Below are positions 5,578 through 23,241 of a DNA stretch of 23,241 nucleotides, piece after piece. The stretch spans positions 1 through 23,241 of IMG/VR virus record IMGVR_UViG_3300029927_000014. One strand, 5' to 3'. Positions within the stretch are counted from its first letter, which is position 1, and each line of letters opens with the position of its first letter. The stretch is from a virus. The translations under genes were made by a program, and so were the position numbers. The notes under the pieces were generated by a model. It worked only from the letters and a program-made list of their open reading frames with translations, made no database searches and had not been told where the DNA came from.

Positions 5578-6918
5578 ATGGCAGATATACACTTTCAAGA
5601 ACAAGCAGAACCTAGTACACCACAAGGTGGTAAGACTAAGCTTTACGTGGATGAGGCAGACTCTCATTTAAAGACAAAGGATAGTACTGGCACAATAGTT
5701 GATTTAACTAGTATTGGTAATGCACCCTTAACAACGTTCTTAGTACAAGATGCTGGTGGTTTATCTGGGACTCTTGATAGCACTATTGAATATATAATTG
5801 ATGGTGTCATTGATATGGGCTCTCAATCCATTGAAGTACCAGCTGGAGGGTTAAACCTAAAAGGCCACAACTTTAATGTATCAAAACTAATTTCTAGTTC
5901 TGTTGGTTATACTATGTTTACAAGCCCTGTTGGTGGTTCTGGGGACTTGTTAGGTATGGACTATGCAGTTGAAGTAACAGGTTCAGGTTCTAAAGTTTAC
6001 AACCTTGTTGCAGATACAGGGTTTGAGTCTTTTGAGTTTGAACGTATTAATTACAATGACTGTTCTTCTTTAGGTTCTGTTGAGGGATATAGACAAGGTC
6101 TAGAAGGTGGTACTGGCAGGTTTGGGGGAAGGCCAACACTAACCCTAACAGGGACTTGGTTGGGTGGCTACTTTATAGACACATCTATTGTACGAAGCTT
6201 AGACTCTGGTATGACCGGCTCTTTGTATGAAGCAGGGGCTGGATTCTCTATGGGTTCACGATTTAGGTCTAATCAAAATATTGACTTACCTGCATCTGCT
6301 TCTTTCTTTGACTTCTCTTCTTCCAACTTTACCCAACCATCACTTATTCAACTAAGTGGTTGTATTATGACTAGGGATGGTGTTGTAGATTCAGCTGACA
6401 CAAACCTCACTCCAAACATTGATGCTTCTAACTTGATGTGTAAGTGGAGAGATAACATAGGGCTTGCAAATACCTTTGAAGGTGGTGAGTTGGATATAAC
6501 AACAGAGGTAGAGACAGTTATTAATGTATCTGGAACCTATGAAGATGTATTAGGTACATATACCCCAGCTGGACTTCAGCACTTTGATGAACCTGCAAAT
6601 GGGCAATTAAGGCACTTAGGTTCTGACCCCAAAGAATATAAGATACAAGGTCAATTAGTTATTGATGGTGGGGCTAATGATGTAGTAGCAGTTAAAATTG
6701 TCATATTCAGAGATGCCACAACAAGCTTTGAAGATGGAAAGATAATCATTAGACAGATAGCTCAATTACAAGGTGGTCGTAACGTGGGGTACTTTGTCTT
6801 GTATGATAACATAACACTATCCCAGAATGACTATGTTAAACTTCAAATAACAAATCAGACTGATGTAACAAATGTAACAGCAGAACTTAACTCTTATTTC
6901 ACAGTAGAAGCTAGATAA
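5578..6918 (+). CDS. Fibre-like virion structural protein
   Basis: The 446-residue protein is rich in Gly, Ser, Thr and beta-branched residues, with few charged helices, as in phage fibre and spike proteins. The N-terminus (STPQGGKTKLYVDEADSHLK, followed by a TGTIVDL strand) matches a short motif often seen at the head of phage tail or appendage proteins, where it reads as an attachment segment. The rest looks like a succession of beta strands, and the last 120 residues resemble a compact jelly-roll-like domain. No enzyme motif is visible. It follows the collagen-like gene by 5 nt and is probably co-translated with it. It may be a receptor-binding tip or adaptor for the tailspike; exact role unknown. 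Confidence 0.6.
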   Translation: MADIHFQEQAEPSTPQGGKTKLYVDEADSHLKTKDSTGTIVDLTSIGNAPLTTFLVQDAGGLSGTLDSTIEYIIDGVIDMGSQSIEVPAGGLNLKGHNFNVSKLISSSVGYTMFTSPVGGSGDLLGMDYAVEVTGSGSKVYNLVADTGFESFEFERINYNDCSSLGSVEGYRQGLEGGTGRFGGRPTLTLTGTWLGGYFIDTSIVRSLDSGMTGSLYEAGAGFSMGSRFRSNQNIDLPASASFFDFSSSNFTQPSLIQLSGCIMTRDGVVDSADTNLTPNIDASNLMCKWRDNIGLANTFEGGELDITTEVETVINVSGTYEDVLGTYTPAGLQHFDEPANGQLRHLGSDPKEYKIQGQLVIDGGANDVVAVKIVIFRDATTSFEDGKIIIRQIAQLQGGRNVGYFVLYDNITLSQNDYVKLQITNQTDVTNVTAELNSYFTVEAR

Positions 6919-21280: not shown

Positions 21281-21358
21281 ACCTTAAAAGATGTTTAATA
21301 TTATATCATGTTTTTAAGTGATTGTCCAATTTAATTTAGTATAGTGGTAGAAACAAAG

Positions 21359-21397
21359 AAGCCCCAAAGAGAGTTTAAATACTCAATGGGGCTTTTT
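21359..21397. terminator. Terminator between convergent operons
   Basis: AAGCCCCA (21359-21366) pairs with TGGGGCTT (21387-21394), followed by TTTTT (21393-21397). An inner pairing GAGT (21371-21374) with ACTC (21381-21384) adds a second stem. On the other strand the stem is followed by TTCTTTGTTTC, which is T-rich but not a clean tract. Plus-strand late genes and minus-strand genes both end here, so it probably works in both directions, more strongly on the plus strand. The flanks 21281-21358 and 21398-21409 hold nothing else recognisable. Confidence 0.88.
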
Positions 21398-21409
21398 ATT
21401 AACTTAAAT

Positions 21410-21493
21410 TTATAGGAACATTGTTAGAAATACAAGTACTATTACTGTAACACCTATTGTATATACGGTATATCCTATCCAATCACTCATCAT
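21410..21493 (-). CDS. 27-residue single-span membrane peptide
   Basis: The peptide starts ATGATGAGT; the first ATG lies 6 nt after GGAG, so it is chosen over the second. After MMSDW it is almost wholly hydrophobic (YTIGVTVIVLVFLTMF), enough for one membrane span. The start overlaps the end of the upstream 46-residue gene by 11 nt. It is the last gene before the terminator. Small single-span phage peptides can be holin-like, lysis-timing or host-membrane factors; no family is recognised. Confidence 0.55.
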   Translation of the reverse strand: MMSDWIGYTVYTIGVTVIVLVFLTMFL

Positions 21494-21623
21494 AATATTC
21501 TCCAAGCCTAAACTTTTGATCTTTAATCAAAGTCTTACCCTCCAACTTCTGTCCCTCAATGATACGGAGGTTAGCCTTCTCCCTCCGCTTCTGTTCAGCT
21601 AGACTCTCTTTCTTGGTACTCAT
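21483..21623 (-). CDS. 46-residue charged protein, unknown
   Basis: The frame starts at ATG within an ATGA overlap with the upstream gene's stop. The product (MSTKKESLAEQKRREKANLR at the start, GEYYDE at the end) is helical and strongly charged, with 13 Lys/Arg. A purine-rich GGAG-type site is present for the following gene inside its last codons. No family is recognised. Evidence is the double overlap and the uninterrupted frame between coupled genes. Confidence 0.55.
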   Translation of the reverse strand: MSTKKESLAEQKRREKANLRIIEGQKLEGKTLIKDQKFRLGEYYDE

Positions 21624-21970
21624 ATATCATACTCCTTGACAATCTCAAGTGTCAGACAGTGTGCAAACACTCTATCCCCTAAATCTCTAGGTTGTACAGC
21701 ACTTCCAATGTTCTTGTATACGCCATCTACCAAGTGCTTCACAATAGAGGGTGGAGAGCTCCTGTAAGCCCCTGTAAGCTGTTCAATTGCCTTACCCCTA
21801 CCTACCATAGCTCTCTTAAGTTCTAAGTCGTCCTCCGCTACGTGAGACACGAATACACACCCCTCTACCTGCTCAACTGAGTTAGCTTCACCCTTTGAAG
21901 CGTAGGTAAGGCCAACACAGAATACAACCCAGCCTATTACTAAGTACCAGTTACAATTAATCATAATCAA
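21620..21970 (-). CDS. Small exported or membrane-anchored protein, unknown
   Basis: The N-terminus (about residues 6-23, CNWYLVIGWVVFCVGLTY) is a hydrophobic segment followed by ASKGEA, so it is either a signal peptide or a membrane anchor. The mature part (about 90 residues) is soluble and has two Cys (38 and 105) that could form a disulphide in the periplasm. The start may be TTG 21970, with GAGG 5 nt upstream and a TTGA overlap with a tiny ORF, or ATG 21964. I recognise no family. A periplasmic product from a metabolism operon is odd; superinfection exclusion or a host-envelope role is possible. Confidence 0.65.
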   Translation of the reverse strand: MIMINCNWYLVIGWVVFCVGLTYASKGEANSVEQVEGCVFVSHVAEDDLELKRAMVGRGKAIEQLTGAYRSSPPSIVKHLVDGVYKNIGSAVQPRDLGDRVFAHCLTLEIVKEYDI

Positions 21971-22011
21971 TATAACCTCATCTTAACTATCCAATTATTA
22001 TCCTTCACCAT
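21967..22011 (-). CDS. 14-codon micro-ORF in the coupled chain
   Basis: ATG 22011 (or GTG 22008, in the same frame) opens a frame for MVKDNNWIVKMRLY. Its stop overlaps the TTG start of the next gene (TTGA), and its start overlaps the previous stop. It begins with GTGAAGGATAA, the same junction sequence as the two larger upstream ORFs. It may be a real micro-peptide, a coupling leader for the weak TTG start, or a remnant of a longer gene. Confidence 0.3.
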   Translation of the reverse strand: MVKDNNWIVKMRLY

Positions 22012-22133
22012 ATGTACCACCCCTCTTCATCATCCCAATAGTGCCAATAATCAGACAACTCATCTGGGTCATAGTACAGAGGATGGTCTTCTTCAACCAA
22101 CTCATCCTCTAGTAATTGCCTTTTAGCCTTCAC
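22005..22133 (-). CDS. 42-residue acidic, aromatic-rich protein
   Basis: GTG opens within the end of the 70-residue gene, sharing an 11-nt overlap of the form GTGAAGGCTAA. After a basic start (MKAKRQLLEDELVEEDHPLY) the protein is rich in Asp, Glu, Trp and Tyr, with 4 Trp and 5 Tyr in 42 residues (YYDPDEL, YWHYWDDEE). Its net charge is strongly negative. Small acidic phage proteins sometimes mimic DNA or block host enzymes; that is only a possibility here. No family is recognised. Confidence 0.5.
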   Translation of the reverse strand: MKAKRQLLEDELVEEDHPLYYDPDELSDYWHYWDDEEGWYIW

Positions 22134-22335
22134 AAGCAAATAACTCCCTTAAAGCCTCTTCATCCCAGTAGTCTAAAGGTACGTTATGTAACTTTACCGG
22201 CTCATAGCCATCCTGTTTAAGCAAGGAGAACAAATCTTTTGCAAACTCCTTAAACAAATATGGAGTGAGACTGTAAAACATAAAGTCACCATCACAGTCT
22301 GTGCCCCTCAGATATAACTCTATTTTATCCTTCAC
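22123..22335 (-). CDS. 70-residue protein of unknown function after nrdA
   Basis: It starts at GTG within the last codons of nrdA (11-nt overlap, GTGAAGGATAA). The product has two-part character: MKDKIELYLRGTDCDGDFMF (beta-like) then YLFKEFAKDLFSLLKQDGYE (helix) and a short end in FACEG. That end repeats the ACEG end of NrdA at the DNA and protein level. No enzyme motif is visible. Context suggests linkage with nucleotide metabolism, or simply a small gene placed at a favoured junction. Confidence 0.6.
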   Translation of the reverse strand: MKDKIELYLRGTDCDGDFMFYSLTPYLFKEFAKDLFSLLKQDGYEPVKLHNVPLDYWDEEALRELFACEG

Positions 22336-23241
22336 AAGCTACACACTCCCCTGTTGAACCCACTACACCAGCTTCACTACGAATATAGTAAAGAGATTTA
22401 ATCCACTTGTCTTTAAACGCTCTCTTATGTACAGCGCTAATAACAGCTTCATCTTCATCTGCTGCAAAGGCTAGATTGATAGATTGAGCTTGACAGATAT
22501 GTCTTTGTCGTGTACTGGCTTGGTCTATGATTACATTCTGGTTAATCTCAAAGAAGGTTCTAAATACTAACTTCTCTTGTTCATCTAACCAGTCTACGTT
22601 CCTTACAGAACCACCATCTGCAATGATAGCATTAATACTATTTGGAATATCAACATCTCTATCCTCCATTATCTTTAACAATGTTGGGTTTAGTCTGTTT
22701 ATCTCTCCTCCTGCACTACCCTGTACGTAAGCATTCTTGTATATAGGTTCTATCCCTTGACTTACTCCACCACAAACCAGTGCAGAAGACGTATTGGGGG
22801 CGATAGCTAACAAGTGGGTATTCCTCAAACCATAACCTTTGCACCATTCTGGTTCACCCTTTAGTTTAGCTAGCATCTTACTAGCCTTAGTTGCCTCTTT
22901 CTTCATCTTACTAAAGATAGAGTTGTTAATGATATGAGCCTCAGTAGACTCAAAGGGAATCATTTTAGACTGGAGATAGCTGTGGTATCCTAATGCCCCA
23001 AGACCTAACGCCCTACTCTTTTCTGTGAATCGTACAGCTTTTTCAAGACCCTTGATGCCTCGTCCCATGTGTATAAATTCTTCTGCAACACAATCCAGAA
23101 AGATGATGGCATGTTGGACTGCTTCTGTATCCTTCCATTCATCATATTTACTCAAGTTCATAGATGACAGTACACACGTAAAGGTGTGGAACTCATCTGA
23201 GTGTAAAGTAATCTCAGTACAAAGGTTAGAAGCCTTAACTG
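22325..23241 (-). CDS. nrdA: Ribonucleotide reductase large subunit, class Ia (C-terminal part, cut by window edge)
   Basis: NrdA reduces ribonucleotides to deoxyribonucleotides; phages carry it to supply dNTPs. The frame is open to the window edge, so the start lies outside. ASNLCTEI near the edge matches the active-site Asn-x-Cys-x-Glu of E. coli NrdA (N437, C439, E441), with its Cys at 23219-23221. The next Cys, in FTCVLSS (23174-23176), matches the redox Cys462. Later come PNTSSALVCGGVSQGIEPIY, KSLYYIRS (matching Tyr730/731 of the radical path) and a C-terminal CVAC pair followed by EG, which recharges the active site from thioredoxin or glutaredoxin. All key residues seen are intact. An ATG at 23161 is internal, not the start. 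A partner nrdB would be expected nearby but is not in view. Confidence 0.95.
   Translation of the reverse strand, partial: VKASNLCTEITLHSDEFHTFTCVLSSMNLSKYDEWKDTEAVQHAIIFLDCVAEEFIHMGRGIKGLEKAVRFTEKSRALGLGALGYHSYLQSKMIPFESTEAHIINNSIFSKMKKEATKASKMLAKLKGEPEWCKGYGLRNTHLLAIAPNTSSALVCGGVSQGIEPIYKNAYVQGSAGGEINRLNPTLLKIMEDRDVDIPNSINAIIADGGSVRNVDWLDEQEKLVFRTFFEINQNVIIDQASTRQRHICQAQSINLAFAADEDEAVISAVHKRAFKDKWIKSLYYIRSEAGVVGSTGECVACEG

Follow-up and report, generated by a model that had tools for sequence, protein, structure and literature searches.

Gene order at the end of the window

The window is the whole stretch of viral DNA that was analysed, 23,241 nucleotides in length, and makes up nearly all of contig C207 (placed at 14-23254) of a 5.18 Mb genome bin (G000). 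C207 itself is given as 23003 nt against this placement, its copy lacking the window's last ~250 bases. On a second contig, C245 (16.1 kb), positions 1-62 (L113) are identical to window positions 23180-23241 at the nrdA end; C245 carries the 5′ end of nrdA and encodes nrdB, a DNA polymerase, a primase/helicase and an exonuclease. Because of the 62-base overlap and this gene set, the two contigs are probably parts of one phage of about 39 kb.

The order on the minus strand at the end of the window is nrdA, ORF2, ORF3, a micro-ORF, ORF4, ORF5 and a hairpin. The nrdA segment (22325..23239) is the 3′ part of the gene for the large subunit of class I ribonucleotide reductase (phrog_84, 1.3e-85), and its product ends in ...GECVACEG*. 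ORF2 (22123..22335; 70 amino acids) opens at a putative GTG start inside the nrdA tail and ends in ELFACEG*, and ORF3 (22005..22133; 42 amino acids, acidic, VKAKRQLLEDELVEEDHPLYYDPDELSDYWHYWDDEEGWYIW*) would likewise open at a GTG inside the end of ORF2, with an alternative TTG start at 22139. In these GTG frames both ORFs show gene-like codon usage, and their N-termini read VKDK.. and VKAK.., respectively. The micro-ORF (21967..22011; 14 amino acids, MVKDNNWIVKMRLY*) is followed by ORF4 (21620..21964), which is signal-peptide-like and shares 72% amino acid identity with its homologue in C105, a contig from another related phage that shares the bin; ORF4 is a flanking gene that is kept across relatives. 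ORF5 (21483..21623; 46 amino acids) is also conserved in C105 and is the last gene before the hairpin (about 21355-21400), which lies between ORF5 and convergent structural genes. At the place of the micro-ORF, C105 (L110, 96-311) encodes a gene of 73 amino acids whose C-terminal end (LEDNKIISATRLY*) resembles the micro-ORF, so that the latter may be a gene remnant.

Searches of phages, of 22 related viral records and of IMG/VR, its own record aside, found no homologue of ORF2; a match to a Shewanella phage was dismissed as weak and as straddling the start of an integrase. No PHROG family matches ORF2 and Pfam gives a weak match to DUF4283 alone (E 0.1), while ORF3 has no Pfam match, and no HNH or GIY-YIG nuclease match is seen for either ORF. 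The predicted structure of ORF2 has a pLDDT of 55. The start of ORF2 (VKDKIELY, N-terminus at 22335) resembles the VKDKIEIW start of glutaredoxins found behind nrdA elsewhere, for example in L137; identification of ORF2 as a glutaredoxin was rejected, the likeness ending after eight residues and finding no support in Pfam.

T2S2 (Zobellviridae) and Pseudomonas phage PA11 are among the best phage DNA matches, all of which span nrdA only; PA11 is probably a member of Paundecimvirus, a genus of the Zobellviridae, as judged from its name alone. A protein of 446 amino acids that matches phrog_16509 (window 5578-6918; L087) is 100% identical in IMG/VR contig 3300029868_000013, so the same phage is present in another record. 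Phages related through this protein have no nrdA within their fragments, ORF4 and the neighbour of 487 amino acids used as anchors recovered no relatives from IMG/VR, and genomes of the host class yielded distant nrdA genes only.

Two copies of the end of nrdA

The sequence-only reading had proposed that one junction sequence recurs at three successive gene starts, and for two of them this is confirmed. Copy 1 (GCTTGTGAAGGATAAAA, 22323-22339, minus strand) and copy 2 (GCTTGTGAAGGCTAAAA, 22121-22137, minus strand) match GCTTGTGAAGG(A/C)TAAAA exactly and are identical to each other at 16 of 17 positions. As had also been claimed, each provides an ACEG-type end for one gene and, putatively, the GTG of the next (22335 for ORF2, 22133 for ORF3). 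The two copies stand in the same register at adjacent stop/start overlaps, with ...ACEG* in one frame, GTG in the next, and the GTG placed 8 nt ahead of the stop codon; overlapping stops and starts between genes with coding signal, the arrangement of a coupling junction, are thus present at both. The similarity reaches further upstream over a GGGAG lying at equal distance in both copies, 10 nt ahead of the GTG in copy 2, so that the extended copies (GGGAGTGTGTAGCTTGTGAAGGATAAAA versus GGGAGTTATTTGCTTGTGAAGGCTAAAA; 22121-22148 compared with 22323-22350) agree at 22 of 28 positions.

The supposed third, shortened copy at the start of the micro-ORF (21995-22011) shares only GTGAAGGATAA (21998-22008), that is 11 contiguous bases and 13 of 17 in all; sites this good number 4 against 1.9 expected by chance, and with a chance-level score it is ruled out as a true copy. 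A gene end in C105 can be aligned to this DNA, with homology that is solid for the last ~12 nt only.

Across the window's entire minus strand, seven pairs match at 16 of 17 positions, so such a match says little by itself; when the local 440 bp were shuffled 1000 times, however, no pair this close appeared. Among the 153 ORF ends of this phage the best score against the end of nrdA, after the 16/17 of ORF2, is 11/17. No other junction in the window carries a copy with three or fewer mismatches, and the search for further linkers that the sequence-only reading had suggested returned no exact copy in the rest of the ~39 kb phage or in the 5.18 Mb bin. With two copies only, a genome-wide family of linkers is ruled out, and the sequence does not recur at several module junctions of the genome as a conserved boundary would. 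The repeat is genuine but confined to this locus, and its parts are ordinary.

The identity of the motif emerges from an exact 17-mer scan of IMG/VR, which located it at 109 places, nearly all of them the 3′ end of a phage nrdA gene (...C(L/I/V)ACEG*). Of 111 proteins tested at the 17-mer, 107 match NrdA; the remaining four are L152 (cut by a contig edge, with an NrdA-like tail), two apparent chance sites, and ORF2. Similarly, among the 8275 ORF ends of all loci collected, those that score at least 16/17 carry the exact motif or one near-variant and, with the exceptions of ORF2 and a single chance site, belong to nrdA. Since the 17-mer sites are nearly all NrdA ends, copy 1 is nrdA coding sequence, specifying the last four residues of the ribonucleotide reductase. 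In copy 2 this tail DNA closes ORF2, an ORFan that otherwise has nothing in common with NrdA (ELFACEG against ECVACEG). The motif is kept since it encodes the NrdA tail and is not a generic linker; the tail DNA (tGT GAA GGN TAA) encodes the C-terminal Cys-x-x-Cys-Glu-Gly redox tail.

The nrdA tail and the changing gene behind it

The same tail DNA is associated with the start of the next gene. In 55 of 97 distinct nrdA loci with a GA(A/G)GG tail, an ATG followed by an open frame of 30 codons or more is located no further than 25 nt from the stop codon, mostly 4-8 nt past it. A start at +3 to +9 is found in 40 of 60 loci with GARGG tails versus 3 of 33 with other tails (p 6e-8), and conversely a Shine-Dalgarno-like motif after the stop occurs in 7/60 versus 24/33 (p 3e-9), these Shine-Dalgarno p-values being optimistic because loci within a clade are not independent. 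Both differences persist in loci chosen independently of the motif (p 1e-4 and 7e-4). Elsewhere the embedded GTG is the sole plausible start, as for the glutaredoxins VKDKIEIWGTEDC.. (L137, L217, L237) and for proteins of 54 amino acids beginning VKAKIWTIWKY.. (L143, L164, L169, L235). These patterns suggest two ways in which the tail could be used: either the Glu-Gly codons (GARGG) would serve as the Shine-Dalgarno sequence of a next gene that starts 4-8 nt beyond the stop, or that gene would start at the out-of-frame GTG itself (tGTGaa). Genes joined to the nrdA tail would in either case be expressed at once. The idea that the linker acts as a translation-coupling signal is thus upheld in part: the start-position association supports a role of GAAGG in translation, but AAGG would act mainly as a Shine-Dalgarno sequence for starts past the stop.

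The gene behind nrdA changes among relatives. Within one nrdA clade, the segment between nrdA and nrdB holds either a glutaredoxin, or a gene of 54 amino acids, or a lipoprotein with two more genes (L137, L169, L239 and relatives), and the last gene of the lipoprotein set is a homologue of the 54-amino-acid gene with an N-terminus of its own. Several of the next genes in this clade open with the GTG in the tail and have VKDK/VKAK in common. Other nrdA clades, too, have more than one kind of next gene. L003 and L004 possess nrdA without ORF2, but with a different next gene. Gene content thus varies at this junction, as the sequence-only reading had anticipated, while the start signals persist, and because several next genes per clade share the same functional tail, the neighbour of nrdA changes at this point without the junction ceasing to work. 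What stood of the notion of linkers that let small genes be gained and lost is this variation at the nrdA tail; their spread through the genome did not. The 54-amino-acid gene between nrdA and nrdB is membrane-like, and downstream of nrdA in L195 an ORF of 402 amino acids has a glutaredoxin-like beginning, so that its product may be a fusion with glutaredoxin.

Origin of the second copy

The repeat is probably the 3′ end of nrdA plus a second copy that was brought in by insertion of ORF2 through recombination. The end of ORF2 in one phage would have recombined with the end of nrdA in another, a non-allelic exchange over ~17-28 nt of similarity with the product nrdA-ORF2::tail-ORF3, in which ORF2 and ORF3 would each start at a GTG within a tail copy; more generally, phages would repeatedly swap the gene behind nrdA at its tail. 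Such a history accounts for an ORF2 whose 3′ end repeats that of nrdA in both DNA and protein. The event and its direction are reconstructed, since no empty site, with nrdA joined directly to ORF3, was encountered among the relatives found; the closest neighbouring contig, C105, stops short of nrdA, and loss elsewhere would fit as well as insertion. A further point against insertion is the length of the repeat (17 nt exact-like, 28 nt extended), which is under the ~30 bp of similarity that RecA or Red need, RecET acting on 5-13 bp at low frequency (PMC2327257).

Convergence, in which the constraints of a GTG/stop overlap and a G-rich ribosome site produced the same 17 bases twice, is unlikely. 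The GTG, the stop and the Shine-Dalgarno-like bases do account for some of the identities, and copy 1 is fixed by the protein of nrdA, but about 11 free positions are left over, no other junction of the phage exceeds 11/17, and, once ORF2 and one chance site are set aside, practically all high-scoring ends among the 8275 are those of nrdA. A selected cassette, whereby the phage keeps copies of an optimal reinitiation sequence between small genes, appears distinctly improbable: a functional signal would not require identical ACEG codons, no more copies exist in the rest of the phage or in the host bin, and the motif is essentially absent from IMG/VR outside the end of nrdA, which together weigh against the use of the tail as a start and Shine-Dalgarno region in many phages and the extension of similarity over an equally placed GGGAG. 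That ORF2 is a degenerate duplicate of ORF3 or of an nrdA-adjacent gene such as a glutaredoxin, with the repeat as part of a tandem duplication, is very improbable, for the resemblance to the L137 glutaredoxin is confined to the first eight residues and the weak YWDEE-like stretch common to ORF2 and ORF3 comes with a p of about 0.04-0.08 for the two proteins.

For the favoured reading, insertion with a copied tail, comparable cases were sought by checking 194 nrdA loci for a downstream copy of their own 3′ end. The top rank goes to the window and the next to a near relative (L005), both with the repeat at the next gene junction; the other survey loci look like chance, so that tail repeats are rare (the window, L145, possibly L005). 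L005 has an ORF4-like gene between nrdA and the gene that stands directly behind nrdA in L003/L004, with GGGGTAGAG(G)TATGA at both of its edges; this repeat may be partly coincidence, and its second copy partly the ORF4 family's own conserved end. L145 has an nrdA end, a gene of 203 amino acids and then a second nrdA end (159/185 nt identical, 86%), the truncated second end being fused to the first codons of a third gene (L145:807-1136) inside a stretch of about 12 shared nt. This third gene directly follows nrdA in L161, L183 and L203, and by its arrangement L145 appears to be an illegitimate recombination caught in place, of the same kind as is proposed for the window.

The closest precedent is gene 68 of mycobacteriophage Island3, an inserted ORFan of 85 amino acids that duplicates, in its final 18 residues and in the DNA behind them, the end of gene 67 upstream; this was attributed to recombination between gene-end copies of ~50 bp (PMC3029335, Pope et al. 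2011). Like ORF2, it is an inserted ORFan that ends as the upstream gene ends; for Island3, whose repeat is longer, Brujita is known as the empty relative, whereas the window has a repeat of 17-28 nt and a donor end that is the nrdA redox tail, which also carries the start of the next gene. Conserved boundary sequences at phage module junctions, a concept cited in the same study, and the 29 bp repeats of LRRHood (PMC3029335) similarly place short repeats at the edges of exchanged genes, but the repeat in the window is conserved for encoding the NrdA tail, not for exchange. In T-even phages, mobE lies between nrdA and nrdB with a UAAUGA overlap suggestive of translational coupling (PMC2988022), and like ORF2 it is an inserted gene that comes immediately after nrdA and has a start overlapping it. 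Whereas mobE is a homing endonuclease, ORF2 and ORF3 lack a nuclease match, and the part of that account drawn on here does not describe a tail duplication for mobE. Shine-Dalgarno sites that overlap the end of the upstream gene, its last codons or stop acting as ribosome site, are known in general (PMC2784483); the overlap in the window is with a catalytically required protein tail that different genes use. New points appear to be what the "linker" is, the duplication of the nrdA tail, and the evidence for that tail as a start and ribosome site for changing neighbours.

It is possible, and put forward tentatively, that the phage nrdA 3′ end serves quite generally as a docking junction through which new genes enter again and again. 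As the redox tail must be (A)CEG*, a Shine-Dalgarno sequence would be supplied unavoidably and a GTG often; any gene recombined behind nrdA would be translated, borrowing its first residues (VKDK/VKAK), and a duplicate tail would sometimes be left behind, as in the window and L145. The reason offered for the repeated use of one spot is that a ribosome site and a start codon happen to lie within the codons of a protein tail, which would make gene acquisition behind nrdA predictable and testable. The ways in which phages acquire small genes while keeping expression intact are mostly deduced from scarless mosaics, and here the scar appears readable. For annotation, genes after phage nrdA may often start with a GTG inside nrdA; in an L137-type nrdA-glutaredoxin pair, such a start would yield N-terminal peptides beginning MKDKIEIWGTED.
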